From: Flavobacterium saccharophilum
Lineage (GTDB): Bacteria > Bacteroidota > Bacteroidia > Flavobacteriales > Flavobacteriaceae
Direction of reading: 5' to 3'
Assembly (NCBI RefSeq): GCF_900142735.1
Contig: NZ_FRBY01000001.1
Location: 434,001-498,000 of the forward strand
Length of the DNA: 64,000 nucleotides
The translations under genes and the position numbers were made by a program. The notes beneath the pieces are model-generated. The model was not told the DNA's origin. It was given only the letters and a program-made list of their open reading frames with translations, and ran no database searches. Position 1 is the stretch's first letter; every line of letters starts with the position of its first letter. Of this stretch, positions 1-20,377 are shown one piece after another.

Positions 1-303
1 GCTGTAAATATTAATTTCGATTTTGTGAATTTGAGCCAATTCGTGGATTTTATCCTTAAAAATCAAATCTAAATTGGCGGTTTTAAGCGGATAAGTTGTA
101 GTCGAAAGTACGTAATTGATATGCTCTTTTACCGCATTTTCTTTACGTTCTAAACGTTCCTGATGATATTCTTTGGCTTCATTCTTAAACTGAATAATGG
201 AAATCGAAGCCAATAAAAAAGATGCCACAACAATCAATACAATCATCGAAAGGAATATCCTTACACGAAGAGAAAGCATCGACATTTTGAAGTTGTTAAA
301 CAT
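1..303 (-). CDS. Membrane sensor protein, probably a histidine kinase (N-terminal part only)
   Basis: This minus-strand reading frame opens with ATG at 303-301 and stays open to the window edge, giving 101 residues. The first 37 residues hold basic residues followed by one strong membrane segment (FLSMIVLIVVASFLLASIS). An Asn/Glu/Lys-rich stretch follows (KNEAKEYHQERLERKENAVK) that looks like the start of an extracytoplasmic sensor domain. This layout is usual for Bacteroidota HAMP-type sensor histidine kinases, but no catalytic domain lies inside the window, so kinase function is inference. A second ATG at residue 7 is an alternative start. It lies downstream of hemJ in the same direction and could share its transcript, although an inverted repeat at 311-384 separates them. 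Confidence 0.5.
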   Translation of the reverse strand, partial: MFNNFKMSMLSLRVRIFLSMIVLIVVASFLLASISIIQFKNEAKEYHQERLERKENAVKEHINYVLSTTTYPLKTANLDLIFKDKIHELAQIHKIEINIYS

Positions 304-310
304 ATTTTTT

Positions 311-384
311 AATTATAAATTGTTAATTATGAATTATTTCGGTTCCTATAATAATTTACCATTAACAATTCACAATTTACAATT
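311..384. repeat. AT-only inverted repeat between hemJ and the sensor gene
   Basis: The arm at 311-335 and the arm at 361-384 are imperfect reverse complements, built from the same short words (aattgttaat, aattgtaaatt). The mismatches are mostly transitions that G-U pairing would tolerate in RNA. It fills almost the whole gap between hemJ and the next minus-strand gene and overlaps the last two bases of hemJ. It may act as a weak terminator or processing hairpin. It is one of several word-based hairpins in this window. Confidence 0.5.
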
Positions 385-931
385 ATTTTTTCTCGCGAAT
401 TCTTTTATAAAAACGGAATCCCAGCATGATTAAAACCGAGAATAAAACAATTCCGATTACACCGAAAATCCAGTTGATGGCACTTTTTAAAACTACTAAA
501 AACACTACGGCAAATAGTATGATGGTAGCGCCTTCATTCCATAAACGCATGAAGTTGTTCGAATATTTTACCTCATCATTTTGCAATTGTTTGAAAATTT
601 GATGGCATTTTAAATGATATAAATACAGCAAGAAAACGAAACATAATTTTACATGCATCCACGGCATTTTCAGCCAGGCGTTTCCTAAATCTGTAAAAAA
701 CAACATCCAAAAAGCAAAAATACTGGCCAAAATTGCTGATGGCCAAGTGATAATGTACCACAAACGGTAGGCCATAATTTTATACTGTGCTTGTAAAATT
801 TCCTTTTCAGGAGATGGTTTTTCGTTCGCTTCAATTTGGTAAACGAATAAACGCACAATATAAAACAATCCCGCAAACCAGGTTATTACAAAAATAAGAT
901 GAAGGGATTTTAGATAATTATAATATTCCAT
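383..931 (-). CDS. hemJ: Protoporphyrinogen IX oxidase HemJ (CopD/UPF0093 family)
   Basis: This is a predicted integral membrane protein of 182 residues if started at the ATG at 931; the frame extends 7 codons further, but MEYYNYLKSLH matches the usual HemJ N-terminus. Four to five hydrophobic segments are visible. Family landmarks are LHLIFVITWFAGLFYIVRLF near the start, RLWYIITWP in the middle and WMHVKLCFVFLLYLYHLKC after it; the first and last contain the conserved His residues. HemJ converts protoporphyrinogen IX to protoporphyrin IX in the inner membrane, the step before ferrochelatase. It lies directly downstream of hemH on the same strand, which supports the call. No HemG or HemY is in the window, so HemJ probably serves this step. 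Other CopD-like membrane proteins are the main alternative. Confidence 0.78.
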   Translation of the reverse strand: MEYYNYLKSLHLIFVITWFAGLFYIVRLFVYQIEANEKPSPEKEILQAQYKIMAYRLWYIITWPSAILASIFAFWMLFFTDLGNAWLKMPWMHVKLCFVFLLYLYHLKCHQIFKQLQNDEVKYSNNFMRLWNEGATIILFAVVFLVVLKSAINWIFGVIGIVLFSVLIMLGFRFYKRIREKK

Positions 932-3349: not shown

Positions 3350-4600
3350 ATGGAAAACAATAATGTACCGAAACACCTATATTTTTATTCAGTTGGTCTG
3401 AGTTATAAAAAAGCTGATGCTGAGGTAAGAGGTCAATTTAGTTTGGATGCAGTTGCGAAGACTCGTTTACTGGAGCAAGCTAAAACAGAAGGAATAGAAA
3501 GTTTAATTGTCACTTCGACTTGCAACAGAACCGAAATCTACGGTTTTGCTGAACACCCATTTCAATTAATAAAACTTATTTGCGATAATAGTAACGGATC
3601 TGTAGATGCTTTCCAAAAAGTGGGATTCGTTTATAAAAATCAGGAAGCTATTAATCATTTATTTCGTGTAGGAACTGGTTTAGACAGTCAGATTTTGGGC
3701 GATTTCGAAATTATTTCTCAAATCAAAACAAGTTTCACCCATTCTAAATCAATGGGTTTGGCCAATACTTTTATGGAAAGATTGGTTAATGCTGTGATTC
3801 AGGCGAGCAAAAAAATAAAGAACGAAACAGAAATTAGTTCTGGGGCGACTTCGGTTTCTTTTGCATCGGTTCAATACATTATGAAAAATGTAGAAGACAT
3901 CGGGAATAAAAACATTTTACTTTTCGGAACAGGAAAAATCGGAAGAAATACTTGCGAGAATCTTGTAAAACATACTAAAAACGAACATATAACTTTAATT
4001 AACAGAACGAAAGACAAAGCTGAGAAATTGGCCGGAAAACTAAATTTGATTGTTAAAGATTATTCGGAACTTCATTTAGAACTTCAAAAAGCCGATGTTG
4101 TGGTTGTCGCTACTGGCGCGCAAAACCCAACAGTTGACAAAGCCATCTTAAATCTTAAAAAACCTTTATTGATTTTAGATTTATCGATTCCGAAAAACGT
4201 TCATGAAAACGTAGAGGAATTAGAAGGCGTAACCCTGATTCACATGGATTATTTGTCGCAGTTGACAGATGAAACTTTGGAAAACAGAAAATTACATATT
4301 CCGGCTGCTGAAGCTATTATCGAAGAAATCAAAGAAGAATTTGTGGTTTGGATGAAAGGCAGAAAATTTGCCCCAACTATCAATGCTTTAAAAGAAAAAC
4401 TGAACGCGATTAAAGATTCAGAATTAAACTTCCAAAGCAAAAAAATCACTGATTTTAATGAAGCTCAGGCTGAAATCATCAGCAACAGAATCATTCAAAA
4501 AATCACTACACATTTCGCAAACCACTTAAAAGACGACGACACCATGGTTGATGAAAGCATCGAATGGATCGAAAAAGTCTTTAAAATAAAAGCATCTTAA
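3350..4600 (+). CDS. hemA: Glutamyl-tRNA reductase HemA
   Basis: The product is 416 residues from the ATG at 3350 (MENNNVPKHLYF). The frame opens upstream at 3287, but that extension has no family similarity. It reduces glutamyl-tRNA to glutamate-1-semialdehyde with NADPH, the first committed step of C5-pathway tetrapyrrole synthesis. Landmarks are the catalytic-Cys motif TSTCNRTEIYG, LDSQILGDFEIISQIK, SFASVQYIM, the nucleotide-binding NILLFGTGKIGRNTCENL, INRTKDKAEKLA, VVVVATGAQNP and the C-terminal dimerisation helix. The next enzyme, HemL, is not in the window. It heads the plus-strand heme gene series. Confidence 0.96.
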   Translation: MENNNVPKHLYFYSVGLSYKKADAEVRGQFSLDAVAKTRLLEQAKTEGIESLIVTSTCNRTEIYGFAEHPFQLIKLICDNSNGSVDAFQKVGFVYKNQEAINHLFRVGTGLDSQILGDFEIISQIKTSFTHSKSMGLANTFMERLVNAVIQASKKIKNETEISSGATSVSFASVQYIMKNVEDIGNKNILLFGTGKIGRNTCENLVKHTKNEHITLINRTKDKAEKLAGKLNLIVKDYSELHLELQKADVVVVATGAQNPTVDKAILNLKKPLLILDLSIPKNVHENVEELEGVTLIHMDYLSQLTDETLENRKLHIPAAEAIIEEIKEEFVVWMKGRKFAPTINALKEKLNAIKDSELNFQSKKITDFNEAQAEIISNRIIQKITTHFANHLKDDDTMVDESIEWIEKVFKIKAS

Positions 4601-4608
4601 ATTTTGGC

Positions 4609-4726
4609 TTTACCATTAAGATATTAAGTTAATTAAGTCTTTGCGCTTAGAAATAGGATATTAAAGAAAATTAAGCTTTGTGTTTTAGCAAATGCACCTT
4701 AATACGCTTAATATCTTAATGGTAAA
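4609..4726. repeat. 20-bp inverted repeat, left copy flanking the GxxExxY gene
   Basis: Positions 4609-4628 (tttaccattaagatattaag) and 4707-4726 are perfect reverse complements around a 78-nt AT-rich loop. The loop contains more pieces of the same words (ttaattaag, cttaatacgcttaa). It lies between the hemA stop and the GxxExxY start. The same hairpin recurs on the other side of that gene at 5156-5232, so the gene is framed by matched palindromes. Confidence 0.85.
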
Positions 4727-4741
4727 AAAATAAAAAGTTCT

Positions 4742-5146
4742 ATGACAAAAAAAGAGGTTACACAATTGGCTTATGAAATTACAGGTTTTGCTATAAAAGT
4801 GCATAAAGCATTAGGACCTGGACTTTTAGAAAGCATTTATGAACAATGCCTTAAATATGAATTAGAACAAAATGGATATGACGTTAAACAACAATTAGTT
4901 GTAAAAATAGATTATTATGATCTTGAATTAGAGTCTGACTTAAGAATTGATTTACTTGTAAATGATTGCGTAGTGGTTGAATTAAAAGCGATAGAAAATC
5001 TTCTACCAATTCACGAAGCACAATTATTAACTTATATGAAATTACTACAAAGACCTCAAGGTTTATTAATTAATTTTAATACGCTAAACATAACAAAATC
5101 AATGAAACCACTTGTAAATGATCATTTTGCAAGATTAATAGATTAG
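4742..5146 (+). CDS. GxxExxY protein, PD-(D/E)XK nuclease-like (PDDEXK_3)
   Basis: The product is 134 residues, the usual size of the GxxExxY family. The name-giving motif is G27-L-L-E30-S-I-Y33. It is followed by R68-x-D70 and E80-L-K82 within DLRIDLLVNDCVVVELKAI, then Q94-x3-Y98. E30, D70, E80 and K82 are the residues expected for a PD-(D/E)XK-type active site, so all catalytic positions seem intact. The family's cellular role is not established as far as I know; nuclease activity is inferred from the fold. The gene interrupts the hemA-hemC order and is flanked on both sides by the same hairpin repeat, which suggests insertion as a cassette. No signal peptide is visible. Confidence 0.88.
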   Translation: MTKKEVTQLAYEITGFAIKVHKALGPGLLESIYEQCLKYELEQNGYDVKQQLVVKIDYYDLELESDLRIDLLVNDCVVVELKAIENLLPIHEAQLLTYMKLLQRPQGLLINFNTLNITKSMKPLVNDHFARLID

Positions 5147-5155
5147 AGTATTTGA

Positions 5156-5232
5156 ACCATTAAGATATTAAGAAAGTTAAGTTTAATGTTCTTTGACAAA
5201 GAAAATCTTAATTACCTTAATATCTTAATGGT
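5156..5232. repeat. 17-bp inverted repeat, right copy flanking the GxxExxY gene
   Basis: Positions 5156-5172 (accattaagatattaag) and 5216-5232 are exact reverse complements around a 43-nt loop. The arms match those at 4609-4628/4707-4726 over their full 17 bp. The loops differ in length and sequence between the two copies. It lies 13 nt before the hemC start codon, so it would be in the hemC leader. Confidence 0.85.
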
Positions 5233-5245
5233 AAAAAATTAAAAC

Positions 5246-6169
5246 ATGGCTGAAAAAACAATCAGAATAGGAACTCGCGATAGCGAATTGGCACTTTGGC
5301 AAGCACATACTGTCGAGAAAAAACTAAACGATTTGGGTTATAAAACCGAGATTGTTGCTGTAAAATCTACAGGAGATATTATCCTTGACAAACCGCTTTA
5401 CGAACTTGGCATTACCGGAATTTTTACCAAAACGCTGGATGTCGCCATGATTAACGGCGATTGCGATATTGCAGTTCACTCGATGAAAGATGTTCCAACG
5501 GCATTACCACAAGGTATTGTTCAGGCTGCGGTTTTAGAAAGAGCCAATGTTTTAGACATTCTAGTACACAAAGGAAATCCGGATTTTGAACAGCCTAGTA
5601 CAATTGCAACCGGAAGTTTGCGTCGTCAGGCATTATGGTTCAATAAATATCCTAACCATACAGTGGTTGATTTACGTGGAAACGTAAACACACGTATGCA
5701 AAAACTACAAGACAATAACTGGGATGGAGCTGTATTTGCTGCTGCAGGATTGGAGCGCATCAACATAAAACCAGAAAATTATATCAATTTAGATTGGATG
5801 ATTCCGGCACCGGCACAAGGAGCAATGCTTGTTGTGGCAATGGAAAATGACAATTATACTTTAGATGCGCTTTCGCAGTTAAATCATATTGAAACGGAAA
5901 TCTGCACGTATATCGAACGTCAGTTTTTAAGAACCCTTGAAGGTGGTTGTACTGCCCCAATTGGAGCTTTGGTCACTTATAACGAAGACGAAGATACTTT
6001 ACATTTTCAGGGCGTTTTGCTTTCTGTCGATGGAAAACAAAAACTGGAAATCGACAAAACGGTCGATATTTCAGAATGGAAAAAACTAGGATTCTTCGCT
6101 GCACAGGAAATTCTAAACAATGGCGGAACCGAATTGATGCAATCTATTAAAGAATCTTTAAAAAAATAA
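5246..6169 (+). CDS. hemC: Hydroxymethylbilane synthase HemC
   Basis: The product is 307 residues. It polymerises four porphobilinogen molecules into hydroxymethylbilane. Visible landmarks are IRIGTRDSELALWQA, VKSTGDIILDKPL, FTKTLDVAMINGDCDIAVHS followed by MKDVPT, ATGSLRRQA, VVDLRGNVNTRMQKL, PAPAQGAM and the dipyrromethane-cofactor Cys in LEGGCTAPIGA. All three domains are present. The stop codon overlaps the hemD start by one base (taATG), so the two are likely translationally coupled. Confidence 0.97.
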   Translation: MAEKTIRIGTRDSELALWQAHTVEKKLNDLGYKTEIVAVKSTGDIILDKPLYELGITGIFTKTLDVAMINGDCDIAVHSMKDVPTALPQGIVQAAVLERANVLDILVHKGNPDFEQPSTIATGSLRRQALWFNKYPNHTVVDLRGNVNTRMQKLQDNNWDGAVFAAAGLERINIKPENYINLDWMIPAPAQGAMLVVAMENDNYTLDALSQLNHIETEICTYIERQFLRTLEGGCTAPIGALVTYNEDEDTLHFQGVLLSVDGKQKLEIDKTVDISEWKKLGFFAAQEILNNGGTELMQSIKESLKK

Positions 6170-6834
6170 TGGCAAAATCAATTCAGATATTATCCACAAA
6201 AAAGCTATCGGGCGAACAAAAACAAGCATTAACTGATGCTAATTTAGATGTCATTGATACCGATTTCATTCAGACTCAAAATAAATCTTTCGAACTAAAA
6301 GACCTCAACGAGAATTTGATTTTTACCAGTCAAAATGCCGTTCACAGTATTTTATCTCATCCAAAAGCGGAAGAACTGAAAACTAAAAACGTTTTTTGCG
6401 TTGGTTTAAAAACTAAGATCTTATTATCTGAAAATGGCTTCAATGTTGTGGCTTACACAGGTTATGCATCAGATTTAGCCGAAATCATCACTTTGATTTA
6501 TCGTTCTGAAACCTTTACTTTTTTCAGCGGAAACCTTCGAAGAGAAACGTTGCCAAAAGCTTTAAAAGATGCCGAAGTAAAGTTTAATGAAATTCAGGTT
6601 TATGATACCTCATTAACGCCTCAGAAAATAAAAACAGCTGTTGACGCAATCTTATTTTTCAGTCCTTCTGGCGTTGAAAGTTATTTGAAAGACAATACCA
6701 TCAAAAAAGAAACGTGCTTTTGCATTGGAGAAACCACTGCAGACGCTTTACATAAAATTACCAAAAACATCATCATCGCAGACCAGCCAACGGTTGAAGA
6801 TGTGATTGAAGACGTAATTGAAGAATATAAATAA
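6169..6834 (+). CDS. hemD: Uroporphyrinogen-III synthase HemD
   Basis: The product is 221 residues. It closes and inverts ring D of hydroxymethylbilane to give uroporphyrinogen III. HemD sequences diverge strongly; support comes from NLIFTSQNAVHSIL early, VFCVGLKTKILLSENGFNV, the second-half FFSPSGVESYL, CFCIGETTADAL and IIADQPTVEDVIE, the paired-domain pattern of the family. Its place directly after hemC with a one-base overlap makes the assignment firm. The C-terminus carries a short duplicated acidic stretch (VIEDVIEDVIEE if VEDVIEDVIEE is read outward). Confidence 0.92.
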   Translation: MAKSIQILSTKKLSGEQKQALTDANLDVIDTDFIQTQNKSFELKDLNENLIFTSQNAVHSILSHPKAEELKTKNVFCVGLKTKILLSENGFNVVAYTGYASDLAEIITLIYRSETFTFFSGNLRRETLPKALKDAEVKFNEIQVYDTSLTPQKIKTAVDAILFFSPSGVESYLKDNTIKKETCFCIGETTADALHKITKNIIIADQPTVEDVIEDVIEEYK

Positions 6835-6836
6835 AC

Positions 6837-6871
6837 CTTTGCAACTTTGTCCCTTTGTGACTTTGCACCTA
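6837..6871. repeat. Word repeat (ctttg words) between hemD and hemE
   Basis: The gap carries four ctttg/ctttgt words at about 9-nt spacing (tttgcaactttgtccctttg and on). The same vocabulary occurs in reverse orientation at 20230-20262 and, more ordered, in the large hairpin at 16803-16879. Here only one arm is present and no hairpin forms. Confidence 0.4.
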
Positions 6872-6882
6872 AAATAAAAAAC

Positions 6883-7916: not shown

Positions 7917-7965
7917 AGTTGATGGTTGATAGTTGTTAGAACCTCATAACTATCAACCATCAACT
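7917..7965. repeat. Perfect 18-bp inverted repeat after hemE
   Basis: Positions 7917-7934 (agttgatggttgatagtt) and 7948-7965 are exact reverse complements with a 13-nt loop. A further partial copy of the right arm follows at 7970-7981. It starts 6 nt after the hemE stop codon and ends 22 nt before the next start. It has terminator-like geometry but no T-tract, and it lies inside a co-directional gene series. Confidence 0.75.
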
Positions 7966-15819: not shown

Positions 15820-16779
15820 TTGTTTTTGGAATATTTGCTAAAACAATTTATTAAAGTGAGAGCAAAAATTCAGAATGCCTTTTCAGGAAAAATTGAAGCT
15901 ATCGGATTTCCAATTTTAGCTTTATGCTGGGTGAGTTTCTTTTGGGGAACAACCTGGTTAGCATCTAAAGAAGCAGTTAGACATATGCCGGGACTGCAGG
16001 TAGCCACTATCCGTCAATTTTTGGGAGGACTGCTTTATGTAGGTTATTTTCTAATTAAGAAAGAACCCTGGCCAAAAGGCAAGCAATGGAAAACGATTAT
16101 TATTTTATCTATTTTGAATTTTGCCTTAAGTAATGGCTTAAGCACTTGGGGAGTAAAATATATCAGCAGCGGATTGGGTGCCATTATTAGTGCGCTATTC
16201 CCTATTTGGATTATTATCATCAACTTTTTTAATGGCATAAAAATCGCCAGAGTTGCTTTATTCGGAATCCTGATTAGTTTTGGTGGAATCTGTATCATTT
16301 TCATGGATTACTTATCTGATTTCTTAAGACCTGATTTTCAATTCGGAATCCTTTTAACCATTATTTCAACTGTTACATGGGCTTTCGGGATTTTGGAAAC
16401 CAAGAAAAAAGCAGCCAGTTTTAATCCCTATTTTAGTCTAGGATTGCAGATGTTGATTTCGAGTGTATTTTTATTTGGAATTACTGAAGCTGCAGGTGCC
16501 AATATTCCTTTAAGCGAAATTTCACTAAATTCCTGGTGGGCGATTGTTTACTTAATCCTTATAGGTTCGGTCTTAACGTTTATTGCTTTTATTTATACAT
16601 TACAACATCTTCCAACGGAAATCAGTAGTATATATGTGTATATAAATCCGATAGTCGCCATGGTTTTAGGATCTTTCATTTTTGGGGAAACACTTACGCA
16701 GGCCATTGCCATTGGAGCGGTCGTAACTTTAATTGGATTGTATCTGGTTAACAAGTCTATTCGAAAGACTAAGAATTAA
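15820..16779 (+). CDS. EamA-family drug/metabolite transporter
   Basis: The product is about 319 residues with roughly ten hydrophobic membrane segments in two EamA halves. Landmarks are CWVSFFWGTTWLASKEA at the start of the first half, ATIRQFLGGLLYV, GLGAIISALFPIWI, and in the second half STVTWAFGILETKK, PTEISSIYVYINPIVAMVLG and FIFGETLTQ. It probably exports a metabolite; the substrate is unknown. The start is uncertain: the frame has no early ATG and begins with TTG at 15820; GTG at 15856 is another option. A large hairpin follows the gene. Confidence 0.88.
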   Translation: MFLEYLLKQFIKVRAKIQNAFSGKIEAIGFPILALCWVSFFWGTTWLASKEAVRHMPGLQVATIRQFLGGLLYVGYFLIKKEPWPKGKQWKTIIILSILNFALSNGLSTWGVKYISSGLGAIISALFPIWIIIINFFNGIKIARVALFGILISFGGICIIFMDYLSDFLRPDFQFGILLTIISTVTWAFGILETKKKAASFNPYFSLGLQMLISSVFLFGITEAAGANIPLSEISLNSWWAIVYLILIGSVLTFIAFIYTLQHLPTEISSIYVYINPIVAMVLGSFIFGETLTQAIAIGAVVTLIGLYLVNKSIRKTKN

Positions 16780-16802
16780 AAGGATTATTTAAGTTTCTTT
16801 TT

Positions 16803-16879
16803 ATCTCTCGCAAAGACGCTAAGTCGCAAAGTTTTATTTTTTAAGTTATAATTTGCGACTTAGCGTCTTTGCGAGAGAT
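16803..16879. repeat. Perfect 28-bp inverted repeat after the transporter
   Basis: Positions 16803-16830 and 16852-16879 are exact reverse complements around a 21-nt AT-rich loop. The arm is built from cgcaaag/cgctaag words. It lies 23 nt after the transporter stop codon and about 85 nt before the SCO1 promoter, so it may act as a terminator. Degenerate single arms from the same vocabulary occur at 6837-6871, 20230-20262 and 27060-27084. Confidence 0.85.
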
Positions 16880-16963
16880 TAAAACATTCTAACATTACTT
16901 TTAATCAAAGTCAAAAGCCTGTTAAAAACAACACAGAATTAGTTTTTTGAAAACTGCTTTTCG

Positions 16964-20222: not shown

Positions 20223-20277
20223 AGGAAGGTTCAAAGTTGCAAAGACTCAAAGGGACAAAGGTTTTGGAAAGGAATTG

Positions 20278-20369
20278 CACAGAGATACACAGATTTAAAA
20301 ACACAGAGCTTCACAGAGATTTAAATTTCTTTGTGAAGCTTTGTGTTTTCTTGGCGAATCTCTGTGGAA
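20278..20369. repeat. Nested inverted repeat between convergent genes
   Basis: The inner arms, about 20300-20319 and 20330-20348, are acacagagcttcacagaga against tctttgtgaagctttgtgt, with two G-U-compatible mismatches. Outer words (cacagagat near 20278, atctctgtg near 20359) extend the stem. It lies between the feo operon and the convergent HD gene, where a bidirectional terminator is expected. The 20230-20262 stretch before it holds a single arm of ctttg words. Confidence 0.65.
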
Positions 20370-20377
20370 TAAAAAAA

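Follow-up and report, generated by a model that had tools for sequence, protein, structure and literature searches.

MITEs and their parent transposons combine dispersed non-coding palindromes with a few coding copies, and homing endonuclease elements place a nuclease gene inside a recurrent recognition sequence that also exists at gene-less sites. Two further systems bear on the locus described here. In the TnpA-REP systems, or REPtrons, the enzyme gene has few copies, the palindromes are dispersed both singly and in tandem, and enzyme and palindrome appear to co-evolve, according to PMC8266576. Intervening sequences (IVSs) of 23S rRNA hold a small open reading frame in the loop between inverted repeats, and it is from such loops that the S23 proteins are known (PMC4990558).

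We analysed a window of 64,000 nucleotides from Flavobacterium saccharophilum, in which a short gene of the GxxExxY family lies between two hairpins. The element is neither a REPtron nor an IVS, yet its layout is like both, with a reasonable chance of its being more than a variant. It resembles MITEs in having dispersed non-coding palindromes and few coding copies, though the unit in the window encodes no known transposase, and it resembles homing endonuclease elements in that a nuclease gene lies in a recurrent recognition-like sequence with gene-less sites present, though no intron or intein was seen and the putative targets are dispersed hairpins. As in a REPtron, a low-copy enzyme gene is flanked by palindromes that also have many dispersed copies away from it, and the gene has few copies and no recent duplicates, as is given for TnpA-REP in PMC8266576; the differences are a predicted PD-(D/E)XK fold in place of the HUH tyrosine transposase, arms that are led by ACC and built from an iterated word with no GTAG tag, and an occurrence that takes in Bacteroidota, Planctomycetota, Verrucomicrobiota and an archaeal MAG, among others. 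With the IVSs it shares the small open reading frame in a loop between inverted repeats (PMC4990558), whereas it lies between the protein genes hemA and hemC, outside 23S rRNA, encodes a predicted nuclease fold rather than a four-helix bundle, and has word-grammar arms with dispersed solo copies.

The open PubMed Central literature, with preprints and subscription journals outside the scope of the search, yielded no account linking GxxExxY genes to hairpins, and none of an enzyme for intergenic hairpins of this kind, which are common in the genomes searched. No described function for the widespread GxxExxY family was found in the same literature, where PMC8934634 mentions it solely as a domain next to an RT. 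The TAACTGA heptamer repeats of PMC4679880 were considered as a relative and rejected, as they are direct repeats and the word 'endonuclease' is absent from that paper.

The hemA–hemC locus and its nuclease-like protein

The gene occupies positions 4742–5146 on the forward strand and encodes 134 residues. Its neighbours, called as open reading frames on the same strand, are the host genes hemA (3352–4600) upstream and hemC (5246–6169) downstream, which lie outside the unit and are given for context; their names are taken over from the first-pass annotation. An upstream hairpin (4609–4728) and a downstream hairpin (5151–5237), both of the ATTAAG word family, were delimited by inverted-repeat search and single-stranded DNA folding. 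In the former, 4609–4637 is 90% complementary to the right arm at 4698–4726, and the left arm consists of ACC and three iterations of ATTAAG (4615–4620, 4623–4628 and 4632–4637); in the latter, which has its arms at 5156–5184 and 5204–5232, the inverted repeat 5151–5184/5204–5237 is 82% complementary. The folding gave z-scores of −4.95 and −7.73, respectively, with none of 200 shuffles equally stable. Additionally, an outer left arm (4609–4642) pairs across the gene with an outer right arm (5202–5235) over 34 nt at 91% complementarity, and it is by way of this enclosing pair that the locus presents an open reading frame between long inverted repeats. GTAG is absent from both hairpins on direct reading of the sequence, their arms beginning with ACC. 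The paired hairpins of one family that had been noticed around the gene are thus confirmed.

Five further hairpins lie elsewhere in the window (298–390, 930–1011, 7917–7965, 16775–16905 and 20274–20370), several of them iterated words of other families, such as the GCAAAG type at 16775 and the ACAGAG type at 20274. A run resembling half an arm is found at 6833–6875, after an open reading frame at 6169–6834, with CTTTGC or CTTTGT at 6837, 6845, 6853 and 6861 (8-nt spacing); it is possibly the relic of a GCAAAG-type hairpin.

The identity of the protein, first proposed from its sequence as a GxxExxY gene with intact E30, D70, E80 and K82 flanked by hemA and hemC, was borne out by profiles and alignment. 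It matches Pfam PF13366 (PDDEXK_3) with an E-value of 1.4e-38 and 132.2 bits against a cut-off of 22, and scores 136.8 bits on NCBIfam TIGR04256 (GxxExxY), whose cut-off is 35. PF13366 was the sole profile match at E-values up to 0.001, with none to Y1_Tnp, the HUH tyrosine transposase. The four residues are invariant across 33 aligned sequences, and are putative catalytic residues of a predicted PD-(D/E)XK fold. The AlphaFold model is a confident alpha/beta structure (pLDDT 95.7) whose best structural match is SSO0001 (Z 9.4), which we take to be Cas4; archaeal Holliday junction resolvases (Hjc) match at Z 5.5–7.0 among many nuclease-fold chains, though a PD-(D/E)XK fold alone does not show function and a Z below 8 may reflect merely a common arrangement. 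A sequence search of solved structures with the protein gave no match. The gene is under strong purifying selection: among eight orthologous sequences at the hemA–hemC site in seven distinct genomes, the 28 pairs have a median dN/dS of 0.036, and the protein is therefore maintained. One genome enters twice, as L104 and L188, which give the same protein and lie on contigs of equal length (1,632,326).

Iterated-word hairpins around GxxExxY genes

The genome of F. saccharophilum has seven GxxExxY matches, and when flanks were read by eye inverted repeats of differing words were seen around each of the other six. To score flanks, the 350 nt upstream of a gene were compared with the reverse complement of the 350 nt downstream, with a threshold of 30; by this measure four of the six (L010, L012, L013 and L014) reach 30, while L011 scores 29 and L015 scores 22. 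We applied the score to a genus set of 95 loci, made up of the seven above plus 88 found in 30 chosen relatives, of which 24 have the family (a further 11 matches over the cut-off, being fragments or frames interrupted by stops, were left out), and to a named set of 78 of 80 loci from the GTDB collection, L142 and L179 being omitted as their flanks were too short to score. The threshold is reached by 73/95 genus loci and 55/78 named loci, compared to 8.5% and 5.3% of mismatched flank pairs (600 each) and to 2/70 and 9/160 control genes in the same loci. The duplicate genome noted above is counted in both sets, and is removed when orthologous sites are merged, which leaves 60 of 87 independent sites at 30 or more against 6.0% of 2000 mismatched pairs. 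The embedding of GxxExxY genes in hairpins is thus far above chance and far above that of neighbouring genes. The remaining 27 of the 87 sites fall below the threshold, with the grammar of the arms visible by eye at some of them.

Similarity between the two flanks in direct orientation is also frequent, reaching 30 in 38 of the 87 sites compared to 4.1% of mismatched pairs. Many of these cases are complete, often tandem, hairpins, and some, for instance that of L094, are no hairpins at all. A division of loci into one interrupted hairpin and two hairpins (42/60 having no local hairpin on either side) was discarded as unreliable, since direct scoring found similarity on both sides widely.

The named loci that reach the threshold include ones from Planctomycetota (L162, L164 and L165), Verrucomicrobiota (L176 and L181), Acidobacteriota (L150), Pseudomonadota (L172 and L183), Ignavibacteriota (L122), Candidatus Electryoneota (L169) and a Methanosarcinales MAG (L159); as the named loci from many phyla are mostly MAGs, single taxon assignments may be wrong. 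GxxExxY genes were also seen within long tandem hairpin arrays (L191, L123, L133, L146 and L174), and in L191 the 350-nt flanks of the gene together contain 37 ACATAG words, counted on both strands.

The arms share a simple grammar, in which ACC (at times GCC or ACA) is followed by a word of 6–7 nt repeated about three times at a spacing of roughly 9 nt. The arm in the window reads ACC-ATTAAG-AT-ATTAAG-TTA-ATTAAG, and one from a Verrucomicrobiales MAG reads ACC-ACAGAG-AAC-ACAGAG-TAC-ACAGAG; arm self-similarity has its maximum at a lag of 9 nt (0.377 compared to 0.288 in shuffled arms). The word types found include ATTAAG, ATATAAG, ACATAG, ACTAAG, GCAAAG, ACGAAG, ACAGAG/GCAGAG, CAGATT and CGAATT, and the word classes used below were drawn up by the analyst after the arms had been seen.

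Word class follows the protein tree. Among the 140 loci with arms of at least 26, 19 had no clear word and three labelled sequences had stops, and a further 35 of the 118 that were left were omitted as at least 85% identical to one kept; on the tree of the resulting 83 proteins (less than 85% identical), word class changes 23 times compared to a mean of 58.9 when shuffled, with none of 200 shuffles giving as few. A similar picture emerges with one sequence per site, where 53 of 87 representatives are labelled (the other 34 being unlabelled or having a stop) and there are 16 changes against 37.5 shuffled, again with 0/200 as few. The link is clearest for the TTAAG class, that of the hairpins at hemA–hemC, whose 10 sites are set apart from all others by a single branch (SH-aLRT 98); the seven sites of the TATAAG class are set apart in the same way (SH-aLRT 82). 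Little or no clustering in the one-per-site tree is seen for CAGAG (6 changes against 7.6 shuffled, 25/500 shuffles as low), GATT (40/500) and CGAAG (500/500), and AATT, CGAAG and AAAAG show none in the 83-protein tree. The 20 loci listed for the TTAAG clade have about a dozen different neighbour pairs, and its hosts are Flavobacterium, Chryseobacterium, Halpernia, Pedobacter, Echinicola and Bacteroidetes MAGs.

Comparison of protein pairs points the same way. The word is shared in 87/121 pairs that are at least 60% identical and from different genomes and sites, and in 16/222, 27/568, 15/351 and 5/164 (3–7%) of pairs below 60% identity, while pairs within one genome share it in 16/116. Since the word is shared between similar proteins across genomes and seldom within a genome, word and protein appear to be inherited together and the word is not set by the host genome. 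Such a link is what would be expected of a recognition pair, though a unit that has not yet diverged would give part of the same pattern; it points to joint inheritance, and perhaps joint spread, of enzyme and hairpin.

Dispersed hairpins and sites with and without the gene

A search for solo copies of the hairpin, as the first-pass annotation had proposed, found them in the genome of F. saccharophilum and, as grammar arms, across the genus. The 17-bp arm ACCATTAAGATATTAAG has 21 exact copies in the 5.2-Mb genome, and 28 with up to two mismatches compared to seven for a reversed control at equal tolerance. From this copy number it follows that most copies adjoin other genes; they lie at about a dozen sites, mostly between unrelated genes. 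The earlier doubt, that the arms might lie beside many unrelated genes with no enrichment at GxxExxY genes, thus proved right in its first half, whereas the enrichment is strong. Among 31 genus genomes, 24 have arms with the ATTAAG grammar (between 0 and 53 per genome, with a reversed control of 0 or 1 per strand) and 20 have arms with the ATATAAG grammar (0 to 86, with a reversed control of 0). Outside Bacteroidota, nine genomes with gene-flanking arms of CAGAG, CGAAG or mixed words contain 10, 149, 70, 5, 137, 0, 2, 6 and 32 CRCAGAG arms, these being pattern matches that include the gene-flanking arms; two Flavobacterium genomes have none, and a reversed control gives no match in any of the 11.

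The number of arms is modestly linked to presence of the matching gene at the level of genomes, with real exceptions and no correction for relatedness in any of the p-values that follow. A TTAAG-clade gene is present in eight genomes and absent from 23, and ATTAAG arms are commoner in the former (one-sided p 0.0006, or 0.003 after subtracting four arms per gene); for ATATAAG arms the comparison of three genomes with the clade gene to 28 without gives p 0.044, or 0.071 after subtraction. Six genomes without any GxxExxY gene have 0–8 ATTAAG arms and zero ATATAAG arms. The exceptions are G051, with 37 ATTAAG arms but no TTAAG-clade gene, and the genomes in which ATATAAG arms are common (up to 53) without that clade's gene.

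From 121 sampled genomes we took the 30 with the closest HemC, our own included, compared their hemA–hemC gaps and sorted them by reading. The gene is present in seven and absent in 23, so that it is not, as might have been the case, a fixture of this site in all relatives; it also appears there in a more distant relative, G036 (L086). Of the gene-less gaps, four have no hairpin, 14 have solo or tandem ATATAAG hairpins, three have other partial arms and two, G054 and G083 (L045 and L059), have a solo ATTAAG hairpin, which might be an intact target for homing or equally what loss of the gene has left. In one of the gaps (L055, from G057) about six tandem ATATAAG hairpins lie within 495 bp, which suggests local amplification.

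Flanks of six further sites (L010 to L015) were searched, and five of these (L010 to L014) were followed in 22 relatives each, giving 110 slots, where a gene was called at 100 bits or more and a hairpin at a score of at least 24 that also beat 20 shuffles. The gene is present in 46 slots and a weaker piece of it in one, 40 slots have a hairpin and no gene, 21 have neither gene nor clear hairpin, and two were undetermined. The hairpins read in gene-less slots often have words of a different family, and palindromes of another kind are among those at the L013 site. At the L012 site the gene was matched in 12/22 relatives; in G077, G083 and G109 (L327, L329 and L336) it is replaced by a CAGATT hairpin in the loop between GCAAAG arms, and in G049 a solo GCAAAG hairpin is interrupted at its middle by an assembly gap (NN). 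The gene thus comes and goes at six orthologous sites, often with a hairpin left behind, and the changing contents of orthologous slots indicate that slots turn over and that hairpin loops seem to be landing places for further elements. No duplicates of the gene within a genome were found above 78% nucleotide identity, and the element boundary could therefore not be set from duplicates. Between genomes, the homology of L116 and L118 ends 84/80 nt upstream, close to the tip of the outer arm.

Origin of the gene–hairpin unit

We consider it somewhat more probable than the alternatives together (roughly 0.55) that the gene forms, with its two hairpins, a local copy of a widespread REPtron-like element of two parts, whose nuclease is matched to its own hairpin word and acts on it. 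The first part would be a DNA hairpin with arms of ACC and about three iterations of a 6–7 nt word, and the second the GxxExxY protein with its predicted PD-(D/E)XK fold. Where a hairpin is extruded or single-stranded, the protein would recognise its own word there and nick or cut the hairpin, and repair or strand transfer would then copy hairpins, rarely with the gene, into other intergenic sites. The nuclease gene would thereby stay at low copy while the hairpins multiply, as has been proposed for RAYT/TnpA-REP and REPs, and where the gene is lost, for instance when its flanking hairpins recombine, a solo hairpin would remain. The initial suggestion of a small mobile or self-amplifying unit akin to REP/RAYT is in this form partly supported, with strong circumstantial support from sequence comparisons: the unit recurs across phyla, the word follows the protein clade, solo copies exist and the gene is absent from 23/30 relatives at its site, though recent duplicates are lacking and arms are also found without a matching gene. 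If true, the element would be a nuclease-based counterpart to REP/RAYT systems, and the pairing of words with protein clades predicts which hairpin a given GxxExxY protein should bind or cut.

The closest alternative, which we regard as unlikely, is that the hairpins spread by other means and are the home of a parasite similar to a homing endonuclease, the nuclease cutting gene-less hairpins of its own word so that repair copies the gene in. Word specificity across the protein tree, the existence of arms without a gene, the solo ATTAAG hairpins of G054 and G083 at a site where 7/30 genomes have the gene, and the L012 site, with the gene in 12/22, a second hairpin in the loop in G077, G083 and G109 and the NN-interrupted solo hairpin of G049, would all be in keeping with homing; however, genes are few per genome despite the many target hairpins, none is recently duplicated, and the amplification of the hairpins would be left unexplained. 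Less probable again is a role in the transcript, with the hairpins acting as terminators, processing sites or means of autoregulation of a host gene, comparable to the stems of IVSs in 23S rRNA. Both neighbours run in the direction of the gene in 48/69 named loci and both are opposed to it in three (open reading frames from our own script), compared to 115 co-directional and 44 opposed for other neighbouring pairs in these loci with respect to the gene's strand, a co-orientation that may stem from selection favouring readthrough expression or acting against antisense transcription; selection on RNA stems should, however, favour G.U pairs, and the arm columns of 128 loci, read on the gene-sense strand, give 5147 Watson-Crick pairs, 128 G.U, 146 A.C and 451 other mismatches, so that with no excess of G.U the pairing looks to be at the DNA level. 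IVS elements likewise have an open reading frame in the loop of an inverted repeat (PMC4990558), but here the words follow protein clades across sites, copies are dispersed without the gene, and Rfam at gathering thresholds has no match at the hairpins in 16 loci.

It is very improbable that the hairpins are the REPs of Y1/RAYT transposases in the genome, with the nuclease a bystander: though 25 of 31 genomes have Y1_Tnp genes, the ACC-word grammar was found in none of six Y1_Tnp loci inspected by reading, which have other palindromes or none (one, L386, reaches an inverted score of 34, but with unrelated sequence), G053 and G054 have 17 and 25 grammar arms with no Y1_Tnp match, and the word follows the GxxExxY tree. 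The least probable explanation is the ordinary one, that intergenic hairpins are so abundant as to flank any inserted gene by chance; solo hairpins are indeed common beside unrelated genes, but neighbouring genes reach the threshold in only 2/70 and 9/160 cases and mismatched flanks in about 6%, and the link between word and protein also speaks against it.

A second family with a comparable arrangement is that of the four-helix proteins (23S_rRNA_IVP, PF05635), presumably the same as the S23 proteins, with genes in 29/31 genus genomes. When 30 of their loci (L242–L271, from a longer match list) were scored at the same inverted-repeat threshold, 22 reached it, compared to 10.5% of 400 mismatched pairs, and their hairpins (for instance in L250, L251 and L260) are iterated words of a different grammar, such as AGGTTCTAAGGTTCTGAG. 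A wider proposal, which we put forward tentatively and hold to be possible rather than probable, is that GxxExxY and four-helix proteins are the enzymes dedicated to self-spreading DNA hairpins of iterated words, which would make up a large, undescribed class in many bacterial phyla and possibly archaea, where each enzyme clade would be matched to its own word and the loops would serve as landing places for hairpins and genes.

Two minor observations concern other elements in these loci. The single Rfam match, Flavo-1 in L145, was set aside, as it lies about 2.5 kb from the gene and is not a grammar hairpin. Some Y1_Tnp genes of the genus (L382–L384) come with their own palindromes, such as CTCGAGGCTCTGCCTCGGGG in L384, and look like REP/RAYT pairs.
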